Shown: piece after piece, positions 3,419 through 41,538 of the stretch
How positions within the stretch are numbered: the first letter of the stretch is position 1
Layout: each line of letters begins with the position of its first letter
Source: a gamma proteobacterium endosymbiont of Lamellibrachia anaximandri
GTDB taxonomy: Bacteria; Pseudomonadota; Gammaproteobacteria; Chromatiales; Chromatiaceae
Assembly: GCA_016756835.1 (NCBI GenBank)
Contig: JAESPE010000021.1
Location: forward strand, 1 to 41,681
Length of the DNA: 41,681 nucleotides
Direction of reading: 5' to 3'
Position numbers and translations under genes: made by a program
The notes under the pieces: model-generated
Databases searched by the model: none
What the model saw: the letters and a program-made list of their open reading frames with translations, nothing else
Told to the model about the DNA's origin: nothing

Positions 3419-4933
3419 ATGCAGGACAATACACCACAAACCACAGACCTCCAGGAGACTGTTGCTGCCATCGATTTGGGCTCCAACAGTTTCCACATGA
3501 TTGTCGCCCGTGTTACCGACGGCAACCTGCAGGTCATCGACAAATTGCGGGAGATGGTGAGGCTTGGCGAAGGGTTGACCAAAACAAAGCAGCTTAAACC
3601 CGAGGTAGCAGAAAGGGCTATCGCCTGCCTTGAACGCTTCGGCCAACGATTGGGTTCTATCCCTTCTGAAAATGTCCGCACCGTCGGCACCAACACCCTG
3701 CGTCAGGTTAGTTCAGCAGACAATTTCCTGGCGGCCGCCCAGCAGGCACTGGGCCATCCCATCGAGGTCATTGCCGGCCGCGAAGAGGCCCGCCTGATCT
3801 ATCTCGGCGTGGCTTACGGCCTTGCCGCAGGGGATGAACGCCGCCTGGTGGTGGATATCGGTGGCGGCAGTACTGAACTCATCATCGGTGAAGGTTTCAC
3901 CACCCGCCAGCGCGAGAGCCTGCACATGGGCTGCGTCAGCATAAGCAGGAGATTTTTCAAAGACGGCCAAATCACCGCCAAGGCAATGAAAAAGGCAGAG
4001 CTTGCCTGCGCCATCGAGATCCGTCCTGTACGCACCTGGTTTCGCGACGGCAACTGGACTCTCGCCATCGGCAGTTCCGGCACCATCAAGGCGATCCGTA
4101 ATGTGGTCCAGGAAGAGGGTTGGAGTGAGCAGGGCATCACCCTAAGATCTCTGGAAAAACTGCAAAAGGCAATGATTGCTGCGGGCAGTGTAGAAGCGCT
4201 CAACCTGAAAGGACTGACATCGGAACGGAAACCTGTCTTCTCTGGTGGCGTCGCGGTCCTCCTTGCAGTCTTTCGCCACATCGGCATCGAGCAGATGCAG
4301 GTCTCTGACGAGGCGCTGCGAGAAGGATTGATCTACGACATGGTTGGCCGCAGCCGCCACGAAGACACCCGTGATCGCACCATCAAATCTCTATCCAAAC
4401 GCTACAATATCGATGCTGATCAGGCAGTGCGTGTCGAAGCCACTGCCCTGGCCTTCTTCAACCAAGTCATCAAAGCCTGGAAGATGGGCGACCCCCGCTA
4501 TTCCAGCATGCTGAGTTGGGCCGCGCTTGTGCATGAGATCGGCCTCACCGTCTCCCACAGCCAGTTCAATAAGCACGGCGCCTATCTGCTGGAAAACTCC
4601 GACATGTCGGGATTTACCCGGCAGGAACAGTGCGTGATTGCCGCGCTGGTGCGGGGACACAGGCGCAAATTTCCCACCTCCACCTTCGAGGCTCTTCCCA
4701 GGGAGGTGGTGCTCTGTACAAAACAACTTTGCGTTCTGCTGCGTCTTGCAGTGCTGTTGCATCGCAGCCGATCAGCGGTAACCAAGCCGCACGCCCTGTT
4801 GGAGGTCGAGGGAAACCATCTGCTATTGGAGTTTCCAAAAGGCTGGCTGGAGTCTCATCCACTGACCCGCGCCGAGTTAATACAGGAAGCGAACTATCTT
4901 GAGGCCGCTGGCTTCGAACTCTCTTTCGAATAA
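3419..4933 (+). CDS. ppx: Exopolyphosphatase / pppGpp phosphohydrolase (Ppx/GppA family)
   Basis: 504 residues, the usual length of the long family members. The ASKHA-fold motifs are present: AAIDLGSNSFHMIV near residue 16, GREEARLIYLGV near 120 and VVDIGGGSTELIIGEG near 142. The C-terminal half (after about 310) is the HD-like helical domain with WAALVHEIGLTVSHS. These enzymes remove terminal phosphate from inorganic polyphosphate and/or pppGpp. Ppx versus GppA cannot be settled by eye; the length favours Ppx. A GGAGATGG ribosome site precedes the ATG. It is monocistronic, with a hairpin just after the stop. The 284 bases upstream (3135-3418) contain no gene that I can see. Confidence 0.9.
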   Translation: MQDNTPQTTDLQETVAAIDLGSNSFHMIVARVTDGNLQVIDKLREMVRLGEGLTKTKQLKPEVAERAIACLERFGQRLGSIPSENVRTVGTNTLRQVSSADNFLAAAQQALGHPIEVIAGREEARLIYLGVAYGLAAGDERRLVVDIGGGSTELIIGEGFTTRQRESLHMGCVSISRRFFKDGQITAKAMKKAELACAIEIRPVRTWFRDGNWTLAIGSSGTIKAIRNVVQEEGWSEQGITLRSLEKLQKAMIAAGSVEALNLKGLTSERKPVFSGGVAVLLAVFRHIGIEQMQVSDEALREGLIYDMVGRSRHEDTRDRTIKSLSKRYNIDADQAVRVEATALAFFNQVIKAWKMGDPRYSSMLSWAALVHEIGLTVSHSQFNKHGAYLLENSDMSGFTRQEQCVIAALVRGHRRKFPTSTFEALPREVVLCTKQLCVLLRLAVLLHRSRSAVTKPHALLEVEGNHLLLEFPKGWLESHPLTRAELIQEANYLEAAGFELSFE

Positions 4934-24959: not shown

Positions 24960-26756
24960 TTACGCCTCTATCGCTTCAAGTGAAATGACACTCTTGGCCA
25001 TGCGTTTGGAGAAATAGTAGATGCGCTTCTGTTTTTCGATGATATCGACTTCAATGGTGTAAGCCGGAATACGGTTGGGCTCTTCGGCCACCAGCCGTTC
25101 CGCCTGATGGGCGGCCGCTGAGTCAGTCATTTTGGTGATCTCCTCTTTCATGGCTGTCACAACCTGTGCGGCTTCCTCACTATTCTGGGAAACTGCCTGT
25201 ACCGCTGCTTTGAAAGCCTTGGTAACCACTTCATGAAAACCCAAAAGAACCTCGCGGGTCGGTTCACTGATTGAAAATCCTGCATTTATCCGGTCAAAGC
25301 CCAAACCCACCAGATTGGTTTCAATCGTATCACCTATGTTCTCTAGATCGCTCACAGCTTCCATGAGCTTGAGAAACTCCTCGGTCTGCTGATCCGATAA
25401 TGACCGCTTACTGATACGTCCCATGTAGTCGATGATTTGCTCGTAGAGGATATCCACTTGGTCATCCAGGTCACGGACAGCGGACAATGACTCTTTATTG
25501 CCAGTGATGATGGCCGGCATAATGCTATCCAGCATCTCTTGTACGCGCTCTCCCATATGCAGCACTTCCAAACGAACCCGGCCTAAGGCAAGTGAAGGCG
25601 TTGTCAGCAACTCTTCATCAAGGTATTTGGCGCTGACCAGCAGATCCTCCTCCTCCAGCGTGCTGTCTGGAATCAACCACTCAACCAGACGGGCGATCTG
25701 GGTGGTAAAGCCGATAAAGATCAGTGTATTGGCAATATTAAAAATGGTATGAGCATTGGCGATCTGACGAGGCGTTTCCGCACCAAGACGATCCACACCG
25801 GAGAGTTCCGGATGAACCGGCGACAGCGCGGTGACCCAATTGGCGAGATGGTCTATAAACAGCACCCATATCAGTACGCCCGCAATATTGAACAGGACAT
25901 GCACTACGGCTGCACGGACTGCTTCTCTGGGTTTGCCAATGGAGGCCAGCATGGCTGTGATGCAGGTTCCGACATTCGCACCAAACGCCAGGGCGATACC
26001 TGCCGGAAGCGTTATAAACCCCTGGCTGGCCATGACGATAACAATACCGGTGGTAGCAGATGAGGACTGTATCAGCCCGGTAAAGGCCGCCGCCACCAGG
26101 ATACCGACCAGGGGATTTTCCATCTGAATCATCAGGTCAAGGAAAGGCTGATAGGTACGCAGTGGCTGCATGGCATTACTCATGACGCTCATGCCGAAAA
26201 ACACCAGCCCCAATCCCATGAGCATAGTGCCATACTGTTTTATTTTGTCCTGTTTGGAGATGAACAGCATGCTGAATCCAACGCCGACCATCAGCAATGC
26301 GGCCTTGGTCACTTTGAAGGCAACAATCTGAGCCGTGATCGTGGTGCCAATATTGGCGCCCATGATCACCCCGACAGATTGCGACATGGACATCAGCCCT
26401 GCGGTGATAAATCCAACTACCAGTACGGTGGTAACGGATGAGGATTGAATAATTGCAGTCACGAACGCGCCCGTCGTGGCACCCATGAAGCGATTGGTGG
26501 TCAACTTGGCCAGGATCAATTTCATGCGTTCGCCGGCGACGGCCTTGAGGGCCTCCGACATCTGCTCCATGCCAAACAGAAAGAGCGCCAGCCCACCGAA
26601 CAGCTGCATGCCCATGGTGCCCCATTTCATCTCTGATTCAGCGCCTGCGGCGGCGAATACCGGGTAGACCATGAATGCTGCTGCCAGACCTGCGAGCAAA
26701 ACCAGCGTCCCTCTTGTTAAATAAGCCTCAAACCAGAGTCTGCTTTTTGTATACAT
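24960..26756 (-). CDS. Na+/phosphate cotransporter (NptA/YjbB type) with C-terminal PhoU domain
   Basis: About 598 residues from ATG 26756, which has GAGGTG upstream; a GTG at 26765 lacks one. The two Na/Pi repeats carry the paired IIQSSSVTTVLVVGFI (about 104) and LIQSSSATTGIVIVMAS (about 234) motifs. About nine membrane helices are followed by a soluble PhoU-like helical domain (from about 390, with VSDLENIGDTIETNL). It probably moves phosphate with sodium, perhaps as an exporter; the PhoU tail suggests phosphate-linked control. The UspA gene is 12-21 bases upstream. Confidence 0.92.
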   Translation of the reverse strand: MYTKSRLWFEAYLTRGTLVLLAGLAAAFMVYPVFAAAGAESEMKWGTMGMQLFGGLALFLFGMEQMSEALKAVAGERMKLILAKLTTNRFMGATTGAFVTAIIQSSSVTTVLVVGFITAGLMSMSQSVGVIMGANIGTTITAQIVAFKVTKAALLMVGVGFSMLFISKQDKIKQYGTMLMGLGLVFFGMSVMSNAMQPLRTYQPFLDLMIQMENPLVGILVAAAFTGLIQSSSATTGIVIVMASQGFITLPAGIALAFGANVGTCITAMLASIGKPREAVRAAVVHVLFNIAGVLIWVLFIDHLANWVTALSPVHPELSGVDRLGAETPRQIANAHTIFNIANTLIFIGFTTQIARLVEWLIPDSTLEEEDLLVSAKYLDEELLTTPSLALGRVRLEVLHMGERVQEMLDSIMPAIITGNKESLSAVRDLDDQVDILYEQIIDYMGRISKRSLSDQQTEEFLKLMEAVSDLENIGDTIETNLVGLGFDRINAGFSISEPTREVLLGFHEVVTKAFKAAVQAVSQNSEEAAQVVTAMKEEITKMTDSAAAHQAERLVAEEPNRIPAYTIEVDIIEKQKRIYYFSKRMAKSVISLEAIEA

Positions 26757-26777
26757 GCTGTACACCTCGGTGATTTA

Positions 26778-29769: not shown

Positions 29770-31032
29770 CTACAACAGCCGTTCTACCCGTACCTTAATG
29801 ACCGAGCGCTCATCCGCCTCCAACACGCTCAGGCGATAACCCTGCTCTTCGATGGCGTCACCTGGAGAGGGGATATGGCGCAGGCGACTGATGATCAATC
29901 CCCCGATAGTATGTGCTTCCTCCACAGGAAAGTGTACATACAGGGTATCATTGACCTCGGAGATGGGCATTCTGCCGCTCATCAGGTGGCTATTTTCATT
30001 CTCATGTTCGATATAGGCCCGCTTCTTTGGATGATACTCATCAAAGTCATATCCCACATCGATCTCACCCACGACCTCTTCAAAAACATCTTCCATGGTG
30101 AGAATCCCCACCGCAGAGCCAAACTCATCAACCACCACCGCCATGTGATCTTCACGGGCCTGCAACTGGGGAAGCGCCCGGTCAATCGTCTGCTTTGGCG
30201 AAAGAAACAGCACCGGTTTCATATAGTCAGCGACAGACTTCTCCATGATGTCCGGGTCCATCAAATCCCATGAATTCAGGGTCAGGACTTTCTTGATATT
30301 GGTAATGTTACCCCGATAGACAGGCAAGCGGTTGAAACCGTATTTCATCACCAGGCGCGTCGTCTCCTTCATGGAACGGGCCTCATTCAAACCGACCACA
30401 TCAGCCAAAGGAATCATCGCCTCACCCACCGTGGTATCGCCAAAACGGATGATCCGTCGAATACGCTTGCGATCAATCGTCGATGGGTTGGCAGCAGAGT
30501 CCGATACATCCAACAGCACTCGCAGTTCCTCGCGGGTGATAAACATATTCTGCGGAATGCTCCCATTCCCCACAATACGGGTGATGAAACGTGCTATCCG
30601 ACTGAAGATAAAGATCACCGGATAGAAAAGATAAGAGAAAAAACGCAGGGCATAGATAAGCCGACCGGAAATCGTATCCGCCTTTTGCTGGAAGATACTC
30701 TTGGGGACAACTTCTCCCAGAATCAGCAGCACAGGGGTAAGCACGATAATTGATATCAGATCACCCACCGAGCCAAACAGATCGATAAAAATCAGCGCGC
30801 CCAGGGTGGATATGGTGACTGTAGCCAGATTGGTTCCCACCAGTGTGGTTCCCAAAATGACGTCTGGCGTGCGAAACAAATTAAGTACCAACGCAGCACC
30901 ACGATTCCCCATCTTTGCCTGATGCCGCAACTTGACTTTATCCGAATTGACCATGGCAATTTCGGAGCCGGAGAAAAACCCCTTCAGCAACAGAAAGGCG
31001 ATAATCAGAAAGAGTTCTACAGCCCAGTCCAT
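29770..31032 (-). CDS. CNNM/CorC-type membrane protein (DUF21-CBS-CorC_HlyC)
   Basis: 420 residues from ATG 31032, preceded by GGGAGA; a GTG at 31035 is the other choice. The N-terminal DUF21 domain has four hydrophobic segments (LIIAFLLLKGFFSGSEIAMV at the front). A CBS pair lies in the middle (TVGEAMIPLADV, MAVVVDEFGSAVGILTMEDV). The C-terminus is a CorC_HlyC domain. Members are linked to Mg2+/Co2+ efflux. Start and stop of the pair overlap (TGATG) with the paralogue upstream. Confidence 0.9.
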   Translation of the reverse strand: MDWAVELFLIIAFLLLKGFFSGSEIAMVNSDKVKLRHQAKMGNRGAALVLNLFRTPDVILGTTLVGTNLATVTISTLGALIFIDLFGSVGDLISIIVLTPVLLILGEVVPKSIFQQKADTISGRLIYALRFFSYLFYPVIFIFSRIARFITRIVGNGSIPQNMFITREELRVLLDVSDSAANPSTIDRKRIRRIIRFGDTTVGEAMIPLADVVGLNEARSMKETTRLVMKYGFNRLPVYRGNITNIKKVLTLNSWDLMDPDIMEKSVADYMKPVLFLSPKQTIDRALPQLQAREDHMAVVVDEFGSAVGILTMEDVFEEVVGEIDVGYDFDEYHPKKRAYIEHENENSHLMSGRMPISEVNDTLYVHFPVEEAHTIGGLIISRLRHIPSPGDAIEEQGYRLSVLEADERSVIKVRVERLL

Positions 31033-32531
31033 CACTTCTCTCCCAACGGCCGTGTGTCGTCAGACACCTTATCGGATGCCATTTCATCAGATGCCTTCCC
31101 ATCAGATATCGTCTCGGGCGAAGCCTTTTGATCGGTACCTTCACCATCCGAATCCGGTTCAAGCTCAGTCTCAGTACCGACTGCAGTATCGTCACCAGCC
31201 GTATCAATCTGCTGCTTATTTGATGAGGATATTTTCTGAACCTGGAGTTCACTGATCCTCAACCCGCTTCGTTGCTTGACGATGAAGCGAAATCCCTCGT
31301 AATTTATCTGCTCACCCGGTTCGGGCAGCCTGTCAAATAAGCGGAAGGCGACACCACCGATAGTGGACATCACCGCATCTTCAATAGCAAAATTGGTGAG
31401 ATTATAAAAATCTGTCAGACGCATATCGCCGGGTACGACATAGCTGTTCTCATCATCCTCCTTGTAATACTCCTGTCCCTCCATCTTTCCGGAGATTTCA
31501 CCGAAAATGAAGGTCAGCACATCCTTCATGGTGACAATACCCAGCACCTCACCATATTCACCCAGAATGATGGCAACACGAGTATTGTGCATCTGGAAAT
31601 AATCGAACATCTCATCCACCTTCTTGGTGGGTGGCACATAATGCGCCGGCTTCAGGATCATATCCAGAGTGATCATAGAGAGATCATCCACGCCTCGGAC
31701 AAGTTTCAATATATCTTCGGAATGGATGAAACCGATTACATTGTCCCAGTGCCCCTGGTAGACGGGTATGCGGGGATGGCGATAACGGCGGAACTGCTCG
31801 ATCAATTCAGGAACAGGTAGGTCCGCATCAAGAAAGCATATGCGGGGGCCAGGCGTCATGATGCGCGAAATATCCGTTTCCGATGCCTCCAATACGTTAT
31901 CGATCAGCACCCTTTCTGTCGCATCGATAATGCCGGTCTGCTCGCCCTCCTCCAAAAGGGTTCTGAGTTCATCGGGCTGCAGGATATTTTCCCTGTCAAC
32001 GGCATCCCCCACCACCAGGGTGGTGATCCAGTCAGCGACCACACGCACCGCCTCACGCAACGGCGTTATGAAAACCATCCAGCGCGGCAGAATCCGTGCG
32101 GTAATACGGGTGGTGAACTTAATGGGATAGCTGACCGCGATGGTCTTGGGGGTCACCTCACCGATCAACAGCAACAGGGGCACCATAATCACTATGTTCA
32201 TCCAGCCCACATCCTGCTCGCTGTAAAGCAGCAGCAGAATCGCCGTCATATTCACGGCCGAGGCGATGTTGACCAGTTCATTGCCACATAGAATAGAGAT
32301 GATCAAACGGCGCGGCTCATCCAGCATCGCGTGAATACTCTCAGAATCACTGTGGCGCGATTGCCGGAGCTTTTGCAAATCTATGCGACTGAGAGAAAAC
32401 AACGCTGTTTCTGATCCTGAAAACACAGCGGATGCGAGCAATAGGATCACCTGAAACAGGATGCGAACAAACAGCTCCCCATTTTCGATATTAAAAGTAA
32501 GCGCATCAAAAAATGCTTTTATCTCATCCAT
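31032..32531 (-). CDS. CNNM/CorC-type membrane protein with long acidic tail
   Basis: 499 residues; a paralogue of the next gene with the same DUF21-CBS-CorC_HlyC order (SAVFSGSETALFSLSR, TDISRIMTPGPRICFL, VAIILGEYGEVLGIVTMKDV). The last 70 residues are extra and acidic, with repeats of SDGKASDE / ASDKVSDD type. Likely function is divalent-cation (Mg2+/Co2+) efflux at the inner membrane. The tail has no counterpart in the neighbour and may be unstructured. Confidence 0.9.
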   Translation of the reverse strand: MDEIKAFFDALTFNIENGELFVRILFQVILLLASAVFSGSETALFSLSRIDLQKLRQSRHSDSESIHAMLDEPRRLIISILCGNELVNIASAVNMTAILLLLYSEQDVGWMNIVIMVPLLLLIGEVTPKTIAVSYPIKFTTRITARILPRWMVFITPLREAVRVVADWITTLVVGDAVDRENILQPDELRTLLEEGEQTGIIDATERVLIDNVLEASETDISRIMTPGPRICFLDADLPVPELIEQFRRYRHPRIPVYQGHWDNVIGFIHSEDILKLVRGVDDLSMITLDMILKPAHYVPPTKKVDEMFDYFQMHNTRVAIILGEYGEVLGIVTMKDVLTFIFGEISGKMEGQEYYKEDDENSYVVPGDMRLTDFYNLTNFAIEDAVMSTIGGVAFRLFDRLPEPGEQINYEGFRFIVKQRSGLRISELQVQKISSSNKQQIDTAGDDTAVGTETELEPDSDGEGTDQKASPETISDGKASDEMASDKVSDDTRPLGEK

Positions 32532-32673: not shown

Positions 32674-33867
32674 TCAGGTCATTGACAACAGCGCTGCCAC
32701 CAGCAGTTCTGCATCGTAATAGGGTGCGCTACGCTTGCTGACCAGCGGCACCTGCACAACCTGCACCCCCAGCTCCTTCATCAAACCATTGGACAAAGAA
32801 GATGGGTAAGCCCCTTTGCGGTCGTCCATCAGCACGTAATTCAGCGATCGGTTATCGTCAGAAGCATCAGGCACATCGGCGCGCAACTGTGCCAGCAGAG
32901 CCTGCACCATACGATCAGAGGTCATGCCGATCTGTTCAGGATCCTGCCCCAAGTTGGGAATATACACCTTGGGACAGTCAGTTTCGACAATGGCTCTCCC
33001 CACACCACGGGGCAGCAGGTTGGCCAACAGGCTGGTGTAGAAACTCCCGGGCGGGTAGCAGATCAGCTCTGACCGCTGGATCAGCTTGCGATTCTTCTTG
33101 CGCAGGATAGCCTCGGCAGGCACTGCCTTATCCAGCCGACTGGACAGAAACAACTTTTTTATGGGTGAGGCCAGCGGCGTCACTTCCTTTCCGGTCAATC
33201 GGTGCTGACCGATAACTTGGCTGCCATCCTCCAGTTTTGCGCCCAGATGAAGATGATCGTTGACCACCGCGCGCACCGTACCGCGCACCTCCACCAACTT
33301 GGAAAAGAGAAAAATAATCGGGTCCAGATGTTGATGGTTATTCAGATAGCCGCCGGCCAGGATCAGATTGCCGATACTGGCGCCACGCAGGTCAAAACGC
33401 TTGGGCATGGCCTCACGAAAATAACCGAGCTGGTGGCGGATCAGGCGACGCATGGGATTGGAGATAGGTTCCACCATCCGATCCCGGCCCAGGATCATAT
33501 TGTCCAACTGACGCAACAGATCGCGATTCTTCACCTCCTTCGCAAAACGATGGGCGAACAGGCTATATACCTCAGGATTACCGGTCACGCTGTCATCGGC
33601 CAGGGCGATCAAGCGACTTCGCAGATCACCGATGGATGGCATATCAAAGGCTTTGCGCAGTGTTGCCGAACTACCGCCGGAATCAAACGGAGTGACCAAG
33701 TGGGTTGAATTATGAGTATATTGCTTCAATACTTGGCAGACCCCGGTCAGGGCCGAGCCACCGCTGAAAAACAGTAAACGGGGACCAAGTTCCGGTGCTC
33801 GGCTATAGCGGTTTATGCGCACCAGATCGGGAATCTTCGCCGAGCGCGTAACTTTAACAGTCGCCAT
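32674..33867 (-). CDS. CofD/YvcK-like protein of the GAK type
   Basis: 397 residues. FFSGGSALTGV (34-43), VTPFDSGGSS (58-67) and the following SIGDLRSRLIALADD (78-92) and ASIGNLILAGGYL mark the CofD/YvcK fold. CofD transfers a phospholactyl-type group to a deazaflavin; YvcK relatives bind UDP-sugars. The length, the N-terminal RINRYSRAPELGP and the gene neighbours fit what I recall as the GAK-system CofD-like family, whose reaction is unknown. It is divergent from the eight-gene plus-strand cluster, with only 91 bases between. Confidence 0.85.
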   Translation of the reverse strand: MATVKVTRSAKIPDLVRINRYSRAPELGPRLLFFSGGSALTGVCQVLKQYTHNSTHLVTPFDSGGSSATLRKAFDMPSIGDLRSRLIALADDSVTGNPEVYSLFAHRFAKEVKNRDLLRQLDNMILGRDRMVEPISNPMRRLIRHQLGYFREAMPKRFDLRGASIGNLILAGGYLNNHQHLDPIIFLFSKLVEVRGTVRAVVNDHLHLGAKLEDGSQVIGQHRLTGKEVTPLASPIKKLFLSSRLDKAVPAEAILRKKNRKLIQRSELICYPPGSFYTSLLANLLPRGVGRAIVETDCPKVYIPNLGQDPEQIGMTSDRMVQALLAQLRADVPDASDDNRSLNYVLMDDRKGAYPSSLSNGLMKELGVQVVQVPLVSKRSAPYYDAELLVAALLSMT

Positions 33868-33958
33868 ATCAAATCATACTTCCGATTGTGATTCTTTCTT
33901 CTTGAAACTAGGCTAATATGAAGAGAATTACAAACTGGAAATATTCGCAGTAAACACC
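33868..33958. promoter_or_regulatory. Divergent promoter region of the GAK-like locus
   Basis: The only gap between the CofD-like gene and the eight-gene operon, AT-rich relative to the flanks. TAATAT at about 33915-33920 is a possible -10 for the plus strand; no good -35 is visible at the right spacing. No operator-like palindrome was seen. Ribosome sites on both sides are weak. Confidence 0.4.
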
Positions 33959-34429
33959 ATGGGAAATCTGATCCCCGGCATTCGCAACGCGGCCCGCGCG
34001 CTGATCGTGCGCGATGGACATCTGTTGTTGCTGCGCAAAGAAGATGATGAACTCGGAGAGCGCTATGCTCTGCCTGGCGGAGCCCAGGAAGCCGGAGAGA
34101 CCTTACCGGTAGCCCTTAACCGGGAATGCCTTGAGGAGATCAACACCGAGGTTGTGATACGTGACCTGCTGCATGTGGCCGACTGGTTCAAACCACGCGA
34201 CACCATTCCACCCACCACCCGCCAGCGGGTGGAATTTCTGTTCGACTGCACCGTACCCGAAAACTACCAACCACGAAACGGCCACCGGCCCGACAAGCAT
34301 CAAGTGGACGTTGTGTGGAAGAAACTGGGTGAACTACAAGATATCCAACTCCTGCCAAAGGCACTGACCAGCTACCTGATGGATTACCCAAAGAGCGAAA
34401 AAACCATCTACCTGGGAACGCTGGACTGA
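33959..34429 (+). CDS. Nudix hydrolase, first gene of the GAK-like operon
   Basis: 156 residues. The Nudix box is complete at 41-63: GAQEAGE, then RECLEEI with R55-E56 and E59-E60 for metal. No zinc ribbon. A long insert (WFKPRDTIPPTTRQRVEFLF) follows the box. It should hydrolyse a diphosphate linkage; the substrate is unknown. Eleven bases separate it from the next gene. Confidence 0.88.
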   Translation: MGNLIPGIRNAARALIVRDGHLLLLRKEDDELGERYALPGGAQEAGETLPVALNRECLEEINTEVVIRDLLHVADWFKPRDTIPPTTRQRVEFLFDCTVPENYQPRNGHRPDKHQVDVVWKKLGELQDIQLLPKALTSYLMDYPKSEKTIYLGTLD

Positions 34430-34440
34430 GAACTCACTGC

Positions 34441-36081
34441 ATGCACCTTTCCAAAAACATCCGAGACAACCTGCATTTTCTGATCGCAGAAGTCGGCTCT
34501 CAGGTTGGTAACCTACATGCCTACATAGATACCTCTTCGCCTCCCCAGGCACAGCGCATTGTCGATCGCAGCGGCTATGCCTATAACCTCAAGATGCGTA
34601 TCCACAACAGCTGTTTGGGACAGATCGTACGCCACAAAGGCAACGATACCCGAACCCAAACCCTGCGTGCCGCTGAGTCCATTGCCACCGATCTGGAACG
34701 TATCGCCGAATTGTGCCGGAACTGCATTCATCAGATGGCCTATCTGAAGAAGAAAAGCTGCCTGCGACCAGCCGATTATGCACGACTGCTCGACCAGGTC
34801 AGCGTCGGTCTGCAGATGGTGCAACCCGCCATCCAGGACAAAGATACCGGCTTGGCCCTGAAACTCGGGCAGATCGAGCATCACCTGGACCGGGACTACC
34901 GCAAACTGCTGAAACACCACACAAAACTGCTGAAAAAAAAGCAACACACCGAAGATTTGATTGCCGCCCTGTTTGTGGCCCACAGCATTGAGCAGATGGG
35001 TGACGCTCTGCTCAATATCAGTGAGGCCATCATCTCCGCCAATCTGGGCCAGCCTATCAACATCGACCGCTACTACCATCTGATGGAATCCATCGGCCGC
35101 CTGGAGGCCGAAAAAAACCTCGACAGTCTGACCATCAAACCAGTAGCCGAAACCCGCTCCGGAAGCGCTATTTCGGGCATCAGCAATCCAAAGAGAAAGA
35201 ACGATGGTTATGTGGCCATTTTCAAGGATGGTAAAAAGCGCAAACTGAAAGAAGAACGGGAAGGGGTAGAGAGCTGGCACGAGATCTACCCCGGACTGGC
35301 GCCCAAGATCCTCTCCTACCACAAGCGCGGCCAATCCGCCTCGCTGCTGATTGAGCATCTGGCCGGCATGACCTTTGAACATGTCCTGCTGCGTGAATCC
35401 CAGCCACTGCTCAACAAAACCATGGGGCATCTGTGCGCCACCCTGGAATCGGTATGGCGTGAAACCCGCAGCAAGAAAAAAATCAGCGCCAACTACATGG
35501 ACCAACTGGCCAAGCGCCTGCCGGATGTCTACGAGATCCACCCCGAGTTCCGCCAGAGTGACAGCCAGGTGTGCGGCCTGAAAATACCCAGCTTCGAATC
35601 CCTGCTCAAGCGCTCCCGCGCCTATGAGACCAGGCTCAAGGCACCGTTCTCGGTGTATATCCACGGCGATTTCAACGTCGACAATATCATTTACGACCCA
35701 CTGGCCAAGCGTATCAACTTCATCGACCTGCACCGCTCCCGCTACATGGACTATGTGCAGGACGTGTCGGTATTCATGGTCTCCAATTACCGCCTGCAGG
35801 TACTGGATGCACCCTTGCGCCGTCGCATCATGCAAACGGTGCAGAGCTTTTACCGCTTCGCACGCAAGTATGCAAAAAAAGCCGGCGACGAGACCTTCGA
35901 GCTGCGCCTGGCCCTGGGACTGGCCCGTTCCTTCGCCACCTCTACCCGTTTCATCCTCGACAAGTCCCTGGCCCGAGCCATGATGCTGCGTGCCCGCTAC
36001 CTGTTGGAGCGCGTATTGGAGACAGATCCGAAGCAGGCCGCTAATTTCCAACTTCCTATAAAGGAGCTGTTCATTGCTTAA
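34441..36081 (+). CDS. PhoU-like domain fused to an aminoglycoside-phosphotransferase-type kinase
   Basis: 546 residues. Residues 1-215 form a helical PhoU-like half, with ATDLERIAELCRNCIHQM and AHSIEQMGDALLNISEAI matching the E/D-x3-D helix repeats. A linker follows, then an APH-type kinase (about 250-530). Its catalytic loop is HGDFNVDN (H408, D410, N415) and the Mg-binding Asp is in FIDLHRS (D429). The lysine of the N-lobe is not obvious. It should phosphorylate a small molecule or a sugar-like acceptor. The stop overlaps the ATP-grasp start by eight bases. I do not know a described enzyme with this architecture. Confidence 0.85.
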   Translation: MHLSKNIRDNLHFLIAEVGSQVGNLHAYIDTSSPPQAQRIVDRSGYAYNLKMRIHNSCLGQIVRHKGNDTRTQTLRAAESIATDLERIAELCRNCIHQMAYLKKKSCLRPADYARLLDQVSVGLQMVQPAIQDKDTGLALKLGQIEHHLDRDYRKLLKHHTKLLKKKQHTEDLIAALFVAHSIEQMGDALLNISEAIISANLGQPINIDRYYHLMESIGRLEAEKNLDSLTIKPVAETRSGSAISGISNPKRKNDGYVAIFKDGKKRKLKEEREGVESWHEIYPGLAPKILSYHKRGQSASLLIEHLAGMTFEHVLLRESQPLLNKTMGHLCATLESVWRETRSKKKISANYMDQLAKRLPDVYEIHPEFRQSDSQVCGLKIPSFESLLKRSRAYETRLKAPFSVYIHGDFNVDNIIYDPLAKRINFIDLHRSRYMDYVQDVSVFMVSNYRLQVLDAPLRRRIMQTVQSFYRFARKYAKKAGDETFELRLALGLARSFATSTRFILDKSLARAMMLRARYLLERVLETDPKQAANFQLPIKELFIA

Positions 36082-36961
36082 AATTGGCATCATCGGCATC
36101 CCCGGCAAGTGGTCCACAGAGACCCTGGCCGATGCCGTAGAATCCCGCACCGGCTACCGCCGGATCATCGACATGGGCGAGGTGGAACTGGACCTCGCCG
36201 GCAAACGGCTGCTGCACGGCGACACGGATCTGTGCAGCCTCGACGGCCTGATCATTAAAAAGATCAGCGCCAGCTACAGTCCCAACACCCTGGATCGCCT
36301 GGAACTGTTACGGGTGGCGGAACACGCCGGGGTACGTATCTTCAGCCGGCCCCTGAACATCCTGCGCCTGGTCGACCGCCTGAGCTGCACGGTCACCCTG
36401 CGCAACGCGGATATCCCCATGCCCGAGACCCGAGTCACCGAGAACGTGGCGGCAGCCATGACCACGGTGCGCGAATTCGGCAGCGCGGTGTTCAAACCCC
36501 TCTACTCCACCAAGGCGCGCGGCATGTGCGTGATCGACGCAGCGCTGTCCGACAGCGACATGCAGGCCCAGATCCTAGCCTTCCAGGCAGAGAACCCCAT
36601 GATGTACATCCAGAAAAAAGTGGCCCTGCCGGGCAGGGATCTGGGTATGGTATTTCTGGCTGGCAAATACCTGGGCACCTATGCACGGGTCTCCCAAAGC
36701 GACACCTGGAACACCACCATCCACAGCGGCGGGCGCTACGAGAATCACCTTCCACCTGACGACATTATCGAACTGGCACGCCGCGCACAGGCACCGTTCG
36801 AGATGGATTTCACCACCGTCGATGTGGCTGAAACCGATGCTGGCCCCATCGTCTTCGAGGTCTCTGCCTTTGGCGGCTTCCGCGGCGCCAAGGAAGGAAT
36901 CGGCATTGATGCCGCCGGGCTCTACAGCGAACACGTCATACGGGAAATCTCTACACAATGA
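36074..36961 (+). CDS. RimK-like ATP-grasp ligase (GAK type)
   Basis: 295 residues. The start is TTG 36074 with AAAGGAG eight bases upstream. The ATP-grasp central part shows VFKPLYSTKARGM (K141 as ATP contact), IQKKVALPGRDLG and, at the end, VDVAETDAGPIVFEVSAFGGF with D250 and E262 in metal-binding positions; the usual Asn of E-V-N is S264. Such enzymes join a carboxylate to an amine via an acyl-phosphate. It matches what I recall as the GAK-system ATP-grasp family. Overlaps the next gene by four bases (ATGA). Confidence 0.88.
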   Translation: MLKIGIIGIPGKWSTETLADAVESRTGYRRIIDMGEVELDLAGKRLLHGDTDLCSLDGLIIKKISASYSPNTLDRLELLRVAEHAGVRIFSRPLNILRLVDRLSCTVTLRNADIPMPETRVTENVAAAMTTVREFGSAVFKPLYSTKARGMCVIDAALSDSDMQAQILAFQAENPMMYIQKKVALPGRDLGMVFLAGKYLGTYARVSQSDTWNTTIHSGGRYENHLPPDDIIELARRAQAPFEMDFTTVDVAETDAGPIVFEVSAFGGFRGAKEGIGIDAAGLYSEHVIREISTQ

Positions 36962-38058
36962 ACAACACTCTGACCATGGAAACCGCCGCCTCTGCCCTGC
37001 AGGATGGCGCCAGTCTCGTCGATGAAGCACTCTATCTCGCCCTTGGAGAGTGTTCGTTGCGGCTGCGTTCCAACTCCGCCGAGCTGCTGGCAAAGCTCAC
37101 GGTCTATTTCTCCCATGTGGCAACCGGGCCATCTGATAAGGTGGATCTTGAGGTTATCGCCATCGAACGGGATATCTCGGACCTGGGCGTAGCGTTCACC
37201 GACTGGAAGCGGGAACCGGGCAAGACAGGCCGCAAAGACGCCTATCTGGATCTGCCTGACGCCCGCTTGGTGTTGAAGGTACGCACCGGTATGGTGTTCC
37301 TGCAGAGCAGCGGCCCGTGTATCGCAGCCGGCCCCTGCCTGCAATACGACAACCAGGTGATCAATTTCATCAATGCCCAGTACATGAACTGGTTGCAGCA
37401 TAGAGACTGGCTGATCTGTCACGCCTCGGGGCTGGTATACAAGGGCGGCTGCCTGGGCATCGCAGGCTTCTCCGGCGGCGGCAAGTCCACTCTGATGCTG
37501 CACCTGATGGATCACGACGAGGTCTCCTACCTGACCAATGACCGCTTGTTCATCCGCAGTCAGAATGGCGGCACAGGTGCAGTGGGGATCCCCAAGCTGC
37601 CAAGGGTCAACCCCGGCACTATCGTGCACAATCCACGCCTGCACAGCCTGATATCCAGCGAGCAGCGTGAGTCCTTCCTGGCGCTGCCCCAAGACGAACT
37701 CTGGCACCTGGAAGACAAATATGACGTGCTAGTGGAACAGGTCTACGGACACGACCGCATCACCCCCGAGGCACCCTTATCCGCTTTTCTGATACTCAAC
37801 TGGCGGCGCGATTCCAACGAGGCAACCACGGTGGAACGCGTGGACCTGGACCAGCGCCGGGATCTGCTGACCGGCACTATCATGAAATCCCCTGGGCCCT
37901 TTTACCAGTACCCCGACGGCAGCTTCTTCAGCGATACTACCGAACTGGATCAGGCACCCTACCCCAAGGTGCTGAAAGACGTGCCCGTTTATGAGGCGCG
38001 AGGCGGCATCAACTTCGAGACCCTTACTGATATCTGTCTGCAACAGTTGATGGGCTGA
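36958..38058 (+). CDS. HPr kinase-related kinase (HprK-related kinase B type)
   Basis: 366 residues. A P-loop GFSGGGKST (170-178, K176) follows a YKGGCLGIA strand, as in the HprK C-terminal domain. TNDRLFI and GIPKLPRVNPGTI come later. The N-terminal 150 residues have no HprK counterpart. No HPr gene is in the window, so the target is unlikely to be HPr. The overlap with the ATP-grasp gene and the amphi-Trp protein downstream fit the GAK set. Confidence 0.87.
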   Translation: MNNTLTMETAASALQDGASLVDEALYLALGECSLRLRSNSAELLAKLTVYFSHVATGPSDKVDLEVIAIERDISDLGVAFTDWKREPGKTGRKDAYLDLPDARLVLKVRTGMVFLQSSGPCIAAGPCLQYDNQVINFINAQYMNWLQHRDWLICHASGLVYKGGCLGIAGFSGGGKSTLMLHLMDHDEVSYLTNDRLFIRSQNGGTGAVGIPKLPRVNPGTIVHNPRLHSLISSEQRESFLALPQDELWHLEDKYDVLVEQVYGHDRITPEAPLSAFLILNWRRDSNEATTVERVDLDQRRDLLTGTIMKSPGPFYQYPDGSFFSDTTELDQAPYPKVLKDVPVYEARGGINFETLTDICLQQLMG

Positions 38059-38083
38059 AAACGCATACGAGACATAACTGACC

Positions 38084-39061
38084 ATGACGACTGAACTGCT
38101 GATCCTGCGACACGGTAAATCAGACTGGAGCCTGGGCGAGGCCGATTTCTCTCGACCCATCACGGACCGGGGCAAGCGCGGTGCCCAACGCATGGGCGTA
38201 TGGCTCTGGCAGCAGGATCTGTTGCCGGACCACATCATCTGTTCACCGGCAGAGCGGGCTCTGGTCACCGCTCAAAAGACCTGCAAGGCCATGGGCATGG
38301 ATCCCAAGACTATCCATAAGGACCAGCGGATCTACGAGGCAGGCTTCAGTGACCTGTTGAACGTACTGCATGAATGCCCTGCCCAGGCCAGACGGGTCAT
38401 GCTGGTAGGTCATAACCCCGGATTGGAAATGCTGCTGCTGCACCTCAGCAACAAACCTATCGATAACCCGGCAGACGGCAAGCTGTTGCCCACCGCCACT
38501 CTGGCCCGTCTGACCATGCCGGATGACTGGAGCCAGCTACAAAAAGGCTGCGCCGAAGTCATCTCCATCACCCGTCCCGGCAGCCTGCAGGAGAAGTTCC
38601 CCTACCCTGCACCCCACGGCGATGAATTTCGCGACCGACCTGCCTACTACTATAGCCAGTCCTCGGTGATTCCCTACCGCATGCATAAAGGTAAACCGCA
38701 GATACTGGTCATCCTGTCCAGCAAGAAAAAACACTTCGTAGTACCCAAAGGCATCAAAGAGCCTGGCCTCTCACCACGTGAATCCGCAGCCCAAGAGGCC
38801 TGGGAGGAAGCGGGTGTGGAGGGTGAAGTTGGCGACACCGCCTTGGGCAGCTACCGTTATCAGAAATGGGGTGCGACCTGCACGGTGCAGGTCTACCCCA
38901 TGCGCGTAACCCGTGAGATCCCGGAGCATGAGTGGGAAGAGAGCCACCGGGGCCGCCAGTGGGTAACACCGAAACAGGCGACCAAGCGCCTCAAGCAAGC
39001 AGAGCTGGCGCCACTGGTAAAGGCACTGGCCAAGCAGCTAGGAGCCTTGTCTGAGACATGA
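38084..39061 (+). CDS. SixA-type histidine phosphatase fused to a Nudix domain
   Basis: 325 residues. Residues 1-160 are a SixA-like phosphatase with R9-H10-G11 in ILRHGKSDW and the second catalytic His H110 in VGHNPGLE. Residues 185-325 are a Nudix domain. Its box at 223-245 is GIKEPGLSPRESAAQEAWEE: the first Glu of G-x5-E is Leu and the Arg of RE is Gln, leaving QE-A-W-EE, a variant seen in DIPP-like Nudix enzymes that act on polyphosphorylated substrates. Two phosphate-removing activities in one chain. Overlaps the next gene by four bases. Confidence 0.87.
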   Translation: MTTELLILRHGKSDWSLGEADFSRPITDRGKRGAQRMGVWLWQQDLLPDHIICSPAERALVTAQKTCKAMGMDPKTIHKDQRIYEAGFSDLLNVLHECPAQARRVMLVGHNPGLEMLLLHLSNKPIDNPADGKLLPTATLARLTMPDDWSQLQKGCAEVISITRPGSLQEKFPYPAPHGDEFRDRPAYYYSQSSVIPYRMHKGKPQILVILSSKKKHFVVPKGIKEPGLSPRESAAQEAWEEAGVEGEVGDTALGSYRYQKWGATCTVQVYPMRVTREIPEHEWEESHRGRQWVTPKQATKRLKQAELAPLVKALAKQLGALSET

Positions 39062-39747
39062 GGCGAATCGCCGCACTCATCCGGCACGGTGATTATCACC
39101 AGCGGTCGGGAGCCCCCAGTGCCCATCAACCCTATCCGCTGAACGCGGCTGGCAGGGAACACGCCCACCAAGCAGCCAAGGAGGTGCAGGATACGCTGCT
39201 GCAACACAACTGGCAGCTGGCACCTGTCATCGACAGCTCCCGAATGCTGCGCGGTTGGCAGACTGCACAGATTATCGCTGAGACGCTGGTCACCCCAGAA
39301 GCAACAGTGGATTCCTTCGACGCCTTGGCTGAGCGAGGCATGGGTTGCCTGGCCAACCTAAGCGTGGTCGAGATCGAAAAAATCCTGCAGCAGGATCCAC
39401 GTTATCCAGAGGCGCCATCGGACTGGAAATCCAACAGCCACTACTGCCTGCCCCTACAGGGAGCCGAATCGCTCATGCAGGCCGGAGAACGGGTGGCAAA
39501 TCACCTGCGTGAACGCATTGCTGGACTGTCAGCGAACGTTAGCGTCGACCAGCTCAAACTATTCGTCGGCCACGGTGCTGCGTTCCGCCACGCCGCCCAT
39601 CATCTGGGCGTGCTGGCCTTCGAACAGATCGCTGCACTTAGCATGTACCATGGTCGACCAGTGTTTCTGGAGAACCTGCCGGATGGAAGCTGGCAGCAGG
39701 TAGCCGGTGATTGGAAGGTACGCGGCGGCGATGCCTATACCGACTAA
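39058..39747 (+). CDS. Histidine phosphatase (PGAM/SixA superfamily)
   Basis: 229 residues. The RHG motif is at 9-11 (LIRHGDYH), and the second His is in FVGHGAAFRHAAH. A 30-residue insertion (GMGCLANLSVVEIEK to SDWKSNSHYC) follows the first domain half. It is a single-domain protein and differs clearly from the SixA domain of the preceding gene. ATG overlaps that gene's stop. Confidence 0.87.
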   Translation: MRRIAALIRHGDYHQRSGAPSAHQPYPLNAAGREHAHQAAKEVQDTLLQHNWQLAPVIDSSRMLRGWQTAQIIAETLVTPEATVDSFDALAERGMGCLANLSVVEIEKILQQDPRYPEAPSDWKSNSHYCLPLQGAESLMQAGERVANHLRERIAGLSANVSVDQLKLFVGHGAAFRHAAHHLGVLAFEQIAALSMYHGRPVFLENLPDGSWQQVAGDWKVRGGDAYTD

Positions 39748-39771
39748 AAACAACAATAACTAACTCCGGAC

Positions 39772-41169
39772 ATGAAACAGCGCACAACGACCAAACACAT
39801 ACCCGATTACCAGGGCCAGCGCTGGCTGCAACCAAAGTTACCAGCCCAGGGTGAATCCTGGCTGCTCGGCAAACAGCACTCCCTCGCGAAAGAAACCCCC
39901 AAACAAGCCGCTCGCATCGAGGTGCTGGGCCAACTGATCGAGCAGGCGCCATGGAAATGGCCAAAACGGCCACTATATTTTATCTGCGATCTGCATGCCG
40001 ATACCGATGCATTCCACGCATCACTGGTGGCATCCGGGCTGATTAAGAAAACCGGCACACGAGACAAGGACTACAAACTCACCAAAGCAGCTCGTAAGGG
40101 CCGCATCCTGATCGGTGGTGACTGTTTCGACAAAGGTCCCAGCGTGCTACGCCTGCTGCGTAGCATCCATAGGCTGAAGAAACGGGGAGCCAGGATCTCG
40201 GTACTGGCCGGCAACCACGATATCCGGACAATGATCGGCATGCGCGCAATGGATGGAAGCAACGACCCGCGTATCGAACACTTTTTCGTGCGCATGGGTC
40301 CCAAGGCCATACCGCTGCTTAAGGAGATCGCAGAAGAGTACCTCAAGGGCTCGAACCGGCTACGCGGGATACCCAGAACACGGGAATGCAGGCAACGACT
40401 GTTCCCCTCAAAAAAATGGTTCGATGATTTCCCCATGCGGGCCGAATGGATGATGCCGGAGCCTGGCATCACCAAAGAACTGCACCGCCTGAAAGAGAAG
40501 GTGCAGCAGTTCACTCAGGGGTGTGAGGAGATCGGCCTGTCACTGCGCACTGCCTATGCAGCGACACTCAAGTTCCAGGAAATTTTTCTGCATCCCAAGG
40601 GCGAATTTACCTGGTTCTACCGCAAACTGCGCCTGGCCCACCGCGAAGGTGCTTTCCTCTTCATCCATGCAGGGTTGAATGACCGTATCTGCCGCCTGAT
40701 CGCCAATCACGGTATCGGTTACCTGAACCGTCAGTTCTGCCGAGAGGCCTGGAGCGATCCCTTTGCCTTCTACTACGGCTCGCTGGCGAACACCCTGCGT
40801 ACCAAATACAGGCCGGTGGATATGCCGTTCACGCCCTACGGCGTGGATCTGATGCACCGCAAGGGTATCCACGCCATCGTACACGGTCACCGCAACCTGC
40901 TGCATGGCCAGCGGATTATGCTACGCAAGGGTATGATCAACTTTGAGTGCGACACGTCCCTGGATCGCAACACGCGCAGCAAGGAAGGCCTGACAGGACA
41001 CGGTGCCTCAGTGACCATCTTCCACCCGGGGGGCCAGGTACTGGGCATCAGCAACGACTACCCCAACATCAAAGTCTTCGAGCCGCAGGCCTTGGTGAAA
41101 AAAAGACGCAAGGCACGCAAAGCTGCGGGCAAGCGTCACAAGTCTATACGAGGAAATCGAACCGCATGA
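39772..41169 (+). CDS. Calcineurin-like metallophosphoesterase
   Basis: 465 residues. The dinuclear metal motifs are intact: D73-x-H75 (FICDLHAD), GGDCFDKG (D117, D120), GNHD (147-150), FIHAGL near 298 and VHGHRN near 370. A region of about 150 residues between GNHD and FIHAGL is unusually long. The C-terminal 30 residues are Lys/Arg-rich (KKRRKARKAAGKRHKS), possibly binding an anionic partner. It should cleave phosphate esters. Its stop overlaps the next start (ATGA). Confidence 0.87.
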   Translation: MKQRTTTKHIPDYQGQRWLQPKLPAQGESWLLGKQHSLAKETPKQAARIEVLGQLIEQAPWKWPKRPLYFICDLHADTDAFHASLVASGLIKKTGTRDKDYKLTKAARKGRILIGGDCFDKGPSVLRLLRSIHRLKKRGARISVLAGNHDIRTMIGMRAMDGSNDPRIEHFFVRMGPKAIPLLKEIAEEYLKGSNRLRGIPRTRECRQRLFPSKKWFDDFPMRAEWMMPEPGITKELHRLKEKVQQFTQGCEEIGLSLRTAYAATLKFQEIFLHPKGEFTWFYRKLRLAHREGAFLFIHAGLNDRICRLIANHGIGYLNRQFCREAWSDPFAFYYGSLANTLRTKYRPVDMPFTPYGVDLMHRKGIHAIVHGHRNLLHGQRIMLRKGMINFECDTSLDRNTRSKEGLTGHGASVTIFHPGGQVLGISNDYPNIKVFEPQALVKKRRKARKAAGKRHKSIRGNRTA

Positions 41170-41444
41170 GAACCGATGGAAAAAGCTTCAGGCACGAATC
41201 ACTGCAGGACACAAAAGCCATCCGTGACCTGCTCAAGTCCATTAGCCAGGGTCTCAAAGAGGGGCACCTCAGCTTCAGCGATGCAGATGGCGAGATCGTG
41301 ATGGAACCGGAGGGTCTGTTGCAGTTCAAACTGACCGCAGCCAAGCGACAAGGTCGGCACCGGATCAACATACGTATCAGTTGGCAGGTGGATGAATCAT
41401 CGGAGAAGAAGGAAAAATCCCTGACCGTACGTTCACGCCGTTAA
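41166..41444 (+). CDS. Amphi-Trp domain protein
   Basis: 92 residues from ATG 41166. The pattern fits the amphi-Trp family (recalled NCBIfam TIGR04354): FRHESLQDTKAIRDLLKSI, then GLKEGHLSFSDADGEIVMEP, LLQFKLTAA and a strand with a single Trp (INIRISWQV, about residue 79). The family is small, of unknown role, and found with the ATP-grasp and HprK-like kinase in GAK loci. The short Lys-rich C-terminus is not part of the core. Last gene of the operon; no clear terminator follows. Confidence 0.83.
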   Translation: MRTDGKSFRHESLQDTKAIRDLLKSISQGLKEGHLSFSDADGEIVMEPEGLLQFKLTAAKRQGRHRINIRISWQVDESSEKKEKSLTVRSRR

Positions 41445-41481
41445 GCAGTAGCATCCAGGAATATACATTTTAGTGAAACCA

Positions 41482-41538
41482 CGTCATCCCGGCGCAAGCT
41501 GGGATCCAGAGAATTCAACGGCTTGCTGGATTCCGGCG
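41482..41538. repeat. REP-like palindromic intergenic repeat
   Basis: ATCCCGGC-GCAA-GCTGGGAT (41486-41505) forms a hairpin with one mismatch, and GGATCCAG reappears inverted as CTGGATTCC (41526-41534). This style (GTCATCCCGGCGCAAGC) is common between genes in proteobacteria. It starts about 37 bases after the operon's last stop. Confidence 0.6.

Follow-up and report, generated by a model that had tools for sequence, protein, structure and literature searches.

GAK is a named system in NCBIfam with four main protein families: the small amphi-Trp protein (TIGR04354), HprK-related kinase B (TIGR04355; HprK_rel_B, hereafter HprK_B), the RimK/MptN-like ATP-grasp protein (TIGR04356) and the CofD-like protein (TIGR04357). 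Searches of the open-access literature with GAK terms returned nothing relevant. We have analysed a GAK locus in contig JAESPE010000021.1 of a gammaproteobacterial endosymbiont of the tubeworm Lamellibrachia anaximandri (genome G000; the whole stretch of 41,681 nucleotides is called the window below). The original prediction, made from the sequence alone, that this locus is a GAK system holds: all four families exceed their curated NCBIfam cut-offs in genes clustered together, and the ATP-grasp, CofD-like and small proteins are each placed in GAK families. The locus is an intact nine-gene version of this already named system, carrying a PhoU-APH fusion and four phosphohydrolase genes in addition to the four main families. 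A search of the nine proteins gave no XXXCH protein (TIGR04358); it was seen in locus L051, and because phmmer finds it in five loci only (delta-type), it is no general GAK feature. What we add is a constant PhoU-kinase partner, a phosphoenolpyruvate (PEP) carboxykinase-like kinase, an exchangeable layer of hydrolases and a phosphate context; newness is judged here against the open literature. The reading that we tentatively favour is that GAK responds to phosphate and serves to make, remodel and degrade some phosphorylated small molecule.

For comparison, 64 named loci were gathered, with GAK found in proteobacteria of gamma, alpha and delta type as well as in a few other phyla; the neighbourhoods of the loci were read (per-locus gene counts are given out of 65). 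Overlapping subsets of the nine genes recur in these 64 other loci, and the grouping is therefore far from chance. Co-occurrence was scored in 369 genomes of the same class, of which 13 carry the GAK ATP-grasp above cut-off and one more a frameshifted copy, giving 14 GAK-positive genomes. At E 1e-40, PhoU-APH turns up in all of these 14 and in no other genome except G243, where a fragment of it neighbours CofD, SixA-Nudix and a phosphoesterase fragment; this extra match is a decayed or fragmentary GAK cluster. The Fisher p value for the co-occurrence is 2e-24, a guide only, as related genomes are not independent. The metallophosphoesterase and HprK_B each occur in 12 genomes, all GAK-positive, with no orphan of either. 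Occurrence in unrelated contexts had been named beforehand as the observation that would count against a system; PhoU-APH, the metallophosphoesterase and HprK_rel_B proved to be confined to GAK genomes or the single remnant.

In 56 of 64 loci the gene immediately upstream of the ATP-grasp is PhoU-APH, and several other loci have it at another place in the cluster; the remaining cases are on short contigs. CofD, by comparison, is absent from 18 of the 31 GAK genomes tested for it, and PhoU-APH, present in all 14 positive genomes, is thus the more faithful GAK marker. The original prediction took PhoU-APH for an added gene; in fact no other gene accompanies the ATP-grasp as constantly, and CofD is dispensable. 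PhoU-APH, ATP-grasp and amphi-Trp form the core, HprK_B is near-core, and CofD is accessory. The commonest gene order in gamma- and alpha-type loci is PhoU-APH, ATP-grasp, HprK_B, histidine phosphatase, phosphoesterase, amphi-Trp, and in delta-type and other loci amphi-Trp, PhoU-APH, ATP-grasp, HprK_B, CofD. Delta-type loci have no phosphohydrolases, except L060 (SixA-Nudix and Nudix). The smallest clusters seen hold only amphi-Trp, PhoU-APH and ATP-grasp (L069) or these with HprK_B (L070). Nine delta-type loci have a conserved 392-aa protein (L051:6828-8006 and homologues) encoded just upstream of amphi-Trp, which has no match in Pfam, NCBIfam or PDB; its motifs HWH, TQHN, HPEQFWP and GDDTH resemble those of PHP phosphoesterases, by eye only.

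The catalytic residues of the ATP-grasp, HprK_B, the APH kinase, the phosphoesterase and the stand-alone histidine phosphatase are intact and invariant in homologue alignments (the number of sequences is stated with each family). PhoU-APH matches PhoU (7.8e-17) and APH(3') (4.6e-6) in PDB, and K262, K268, E272, H408, D410, N415 and D429 are invariant across 56 sequences. The ATP-grasp has RimK and LysX as its nearest solved relatives, with K141, K147, D250, E262 and S264 invariant among 62 sequences; its glycine-rich loop is basic, with an extra near-invariant K147 and R149, and Ser264 presumably stands at the place of the usual metal-binding Asn of RimK. These loop residues and Ser264 would fit a very unlikely alternative in which the ATP-grasp is a kinase, not a ligase, that together with the APH kinase makes a highly phosphorylated polyol, which histidine phosphatase, Nudix and phosphoesterase enzymes degrade, the whole being a bacterial analogue of inositol-pyrophosphate signalling of phosphate. 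The eukaryotic PPIP5K, which acts in phosphate homeostasis, pairs the same two domain types, an ATP-grasp kinase domain and a histidine phosphatase (PMC11836120). Against such an analogue, no inositol kinase appears among the ATP-grasp PDB matches even at E 10, the clear matches all being amino-acid ligases, and NCBIfam puts the protein nearest MptN and RimK.

HprK_B has a PEP-carboxykinase-like fold over its full length in an AlphaFold model (pLDDT 93), which aligns with ATP-dependent PEP carboxykinase over 302 residues (Z 17.1, rmsd 4.1, 13% identity) and with HprK over 137 (Z 14.8), sharing the P-loop core; PEP carboxykinase activity itself is putative. Residues H155, K176, D195 and R216 are invariant in 54 sequences. 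The earlier description of this protein as an HprK-like P-loop enzyme is corrected by this resemblance to PEP carboxykinase along its whole length. In genome G200, a second HprK_B lies on a separate contig (L066:1721-2785) between a Nudix/histidine-phosphatase pair and CorC with CYTH-CHAD. G000 has HPr, but 9 of 32 GAK genomes do not, among them the complete genomes G100 and G239, both of which carry HprK_B; this speaks against HPr as the general substrate of HprK_B and favours another acceptor.

Alternatively, GAK could be a protein modification system. RimK modifies ribosomal protein S6 and HprK modifies HPr, a small protein; by analogy, the GAK ATP-grasp might add amino acids to amphi-Trp or another protein and HprK_B might phosphorylate it, with the phosphatases reversing the modification. 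This alternative is possible but doubtful. In its favour, RimK and LysX, the solved relatives named above, modify proteins, HprK acts on a small protein, and amphi-Trp is a small protein whose gene is close by in 52 of 65 loci. Yet amphi-Trp has no invariant Ser, Thr or Tyr (at the best candidate, S12, 11 of 53 sequences have Ala, e.g. Marinomonas locus L038, where HprK_B is kept), which leaves an obligatory phospho-acceptor role for it unsupported, and its C-terminus is not conserved; the lack of HPr in some genomes with HprK_B and the full-length resemblance of HprK_B to PEP carboxykinase also speak against protein modification. The amphi-Trp model shows a helix and four strands (pLDDT 72), and with this model of moderate confidence a fold search of PDB found no match at E 0.001.

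The hydrolases form the exchangeable layer of GAK: the Nudix, SixA-Nudix and histidine phosphatase proteins are accessory, and the metallophosphoesterase is accessory in gamma- and alpha-type loci. The metallophosphoesterase has ApaH as its top PDB match (E 0.001) and eight invariant residues in 42 sequences (D73, H75, D117, D120, N148, H149, H299 and H373), and the stand-alone histidine phosphatase has five in 40 (R9, H10, R65, E92 and H172). SixA-Nudix retains H10 in 22 of 29 sequences; the SixA half is decayed in some relatives, with the Nudix Glu retained. In L003 SixA-Nudix looks interrupted, but this comes from a run of N at a scaffold gap and has no biological meaning. One CofD-like protein (L022:16638-18440) has an added N-terminal region of ∼200 aa with apparent membrane helices, and this fusion suggests a membrane location in that lineage.

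The neighbourhoods supply a phosphate and polyphosphate context that goes beyond the original prediction. Within the flanks retrieved, a Na/phosphate (Na/Pi) cotransporter gene lies near GAK in six loci, and the window itself has such a gene; the L006 relative was profiled as Na_Pi_cotrans plus PhoU. Homologues of the two CorC/CBS-type proteins adjoining the window's cluster sit beside GAK in L002, L003, L004, L007, L008 and L011, CYTH-CHAD does so in five loci from at least three lineages (L004, L006, L007, L027 and L049), and five distinct genomes have PPK1 at no more than ∼15 kb from GAK (G003, G006/G407, G007, G311 and G337). L007 also has a Pit transporter, DUF47 and PhoU, and L004 a PstS (read by eye). 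CHAD is found in 11 of 14 GAK-positive genomes and 24 of 60 negative ones (p 0.016). The window's genome encodes PPK1 (G000:C168). By eye, a Ppx/GppA exopolyphosphatase-like gene lies at window positions 3419-4933, ∼28 kb from the cluster, and a ParA-like ATPase gene sits directly beside CYTH-CHAD in several GAK loci (L004:1342-2109, L066:5782-6534 and L067:1243-1992); such an ATPase could position polyphosphate granules. A GAPDH-like gene is found near GAK in two genomes (L070:3896-6120 and L042:15509-16522), accompanied in L070 by an MFS gene in what resembles the GAPDH-ArsJ arsenate-export pair, and having in L042 a strong PhoB-box-like site with PhoU nearby.

CHAD domains bind polyphosphate and sit on its granules (PMC6537752), and with the adjacency of CYTH-CHAD and PPK1 and the CHAD enrichment this might indicate that GAK works with PPK1 and CYTH-CHAD in the building, tagging or mobilisation of polyphosphate, an alternative that we consider unlikely. 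PPK1 is missing from 11 of 52 GAK genomes, four Marinomonas genomes (G031, G032, G033 and G035) have PPK1 and lack CHAD, and in six GAK genomes of delta type PPK1, PPK2 and CHAD are all missing. These six rule out polyphosphate as the universal substrate, and the common substrate is therefore something other than polyphosphate.

Promoters were scanned up to 200 bases upstream of operons with a weighted PhoB-box consensus. PhoB-box-like sites precede 16 of 60 GAK operons as compared to 6 of 274 control promoters from the same loci (Fisher 6e-9); the signal is strong in Marinomonas and is also seen in Thalassospira, Gilvimarinus, Monaibacterium, Thiomicrorhabdus and L008.

Our preferred reading of GAK as a phosphate-responsive small-molecule module retains the original idea of genes that together produce, alter and break down a single phosphorylated molecule; it draws on the co-occurrence and position of PhoU-APH, the invariant catalytic residues, the phosphate neighbours, the CHAD enrichment, the PhoB-box-like sites and the absence of HPr. 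We infer the nature of the molecule and the order of the reactions, along with the role of amphi-Trp and Pi sensing by the PhoU domain. PhoU-APH would contribute a kinase arm together with a phosphate-signalling domain of PhoU type. The ATP-grasp, of RimK/MptN type, probably links a carboxylate of the molecule with an amino acid or another amine, and amphi-Trp is a putative binding or scaffold subunit. The PEP-carboxykinase-fold kinase, a usual member, may supply or phosphorylate a small acid. In clusters that have CofD, this protein would join the phospho-acid to an alcohol, much as in the assembly of F420. The two Nudix domains, the two histidine phosphatases and the PPP-type phosphoesterase would strip phosphate and reset the pool. 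Several observations weigh against this reading. The PhoU domain has its own motif residues only partly conserved, so Pi sensing by it is putative; collapsed to genera, the PhoB-box-like signal shrinks to 6 of 44 (p 0.011), and the consensus scan found no PhoB box in the window's own operon promoter or in delta-type loci. Most of the polyphosphate neighbours belong to a small number of gammaproteobacterial lineages, the six delta-type genomes described above lack that machinery, and RimK-type ligases can act on proteins too. The phosphate link of GAK as such is moderately to well supported.

The layout of the window's locus agrees with the earlier account of a CofD-like gene facing an eight-gene operon in which four of the seven junctions overlap by 4-8 bases. 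All nine open reading frames (ORFs; 32674-41444, Table 1) are present and open; the operon spans 33959-41444, with 91 bases between it and the CofD-like gene, and its junctions are, in order, +11, -8, -4, +25, -4, +24 and -4 bases. The mechanical ORF list starts the amphi-Trp gene further upstream, at a GTG at 40947. Pfam and NCBIfam find PhoU, APH, RimK-like ATP-grasp and CofD domains in the nine proteins, and bear out the two Nudix, two histidine phosphatase and one metallophosphoesterase domains that had been predicted. The nearest relatives are endosymbionts of the tubeworms Escarpia and Lamellibrachia (96-97% identity). A REP-like sequence (GTCATCCCGGCGCAAGCTGGGATCCAG) lies 3' of the operon at window positions 41480-41520.

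Table 1. Genes of the GAK locus and context genes in the window
Feature	Position	Strand	Basis and occurrence
CofD-like protein, GAK type, 397 aa	32674-33867	-	TIGR04357 543 bits, cut-off 340
Nudix hydrolase, 156 aa	33959-34429	+	PF00293 49 bits; 21/65 loci
PhoU-APH fusion, 546 aa	34441-36081	+	PF01895 and PF01636
RimK/MptN-like ATP-grasp, GAK type, 295 aa, TTG start	36074-36961	+	TIGR04356 450 bits, cut-off 300
HprK-related kinase B, 366 aa	36958-38058	+	TIGR04355 351 bits, cut-off 200
SixA-type histidine phosphatase-Nudix fusion, 325 aa	38084-39061	+	PF00300 and PF00293; 29/65 loci
Histidine phosphatase, branch 1, 229 aa	39058-39747	+	PF00300 58 bits
ApaH/PPP-type metallophosphoesterase, 465 aa	39772-41169	+	PF00149 barely above threshold
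Small amphi-Trp protein, 92 aa	41166-41444	+	TIGR04354 62 bits, cut-off 31
Na/phosphate cotransporter (context gene)	24960-26765	-	Translation read; clusters with L002/L006/L011
Two CorC/CBS-type membrane proteins adjoining the cluster (context genes)	29770-32531	-	ORFs; family named by eye

The PhoU-kinase partner and the phosphate neighbours give the functionally blank GAK system a concrete, testable link to phosphate; should a new metabolite come to light, bacterial phosphate physiology would gain a new pathway. A bolder extension, which we regard as somewhat unlikely, is that GAK is an undescribed phosphate-status signalling pathway in which the PhoU-coupled kinase and the ATP-grasp produce a new phosphorylated compound, for signalling or storage, and the dedicated Nudix, histidine-phosphatase and PPP-type hydrolases control its level; it might then be a functional parallel to the eukaryotic control of phosphate homeostasis by inositol pyrophosphates.

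Among known systems, eukaryotic PPIP5K/Vip1 likewise ties an ATP-grasp and a histidine phosphatase to phosphate homeostasis (PMC11836120), but the GAK ATP-grasp has no sequence match to inositol kinases. HPr kinase/phosphorylase shares the P-loop core with HprK_B (Z 14 to 15 over ∼135 residues), whereas the full-length match is to PEP carboxykinase, and HPr is missing in some GAK genomes. Mycobacterial MutT1, which adjoins ppk1 in mycobacteria, unites Nudix and histidine phosphatase in one protein as SixA-Nudix does, but with the domain order reversed and as a weak match (E 0.0046, far below cut-off). The side-chain assembly of F420 and tetrahydromethanopterin (CofD, CofF, MptN) differs in that CofD is dispensable in GAK, and GAK proteins score far below the cut-offs of CofF (26 versus 300) and YvcK (196). 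It resembles GAK in combining a CofD-fold transferase with a RimK-family glutamate ligase, and among characterised families MptN gives the GAK ATP-grasp its highest score, 137 bits, far below the cut-off of 350.

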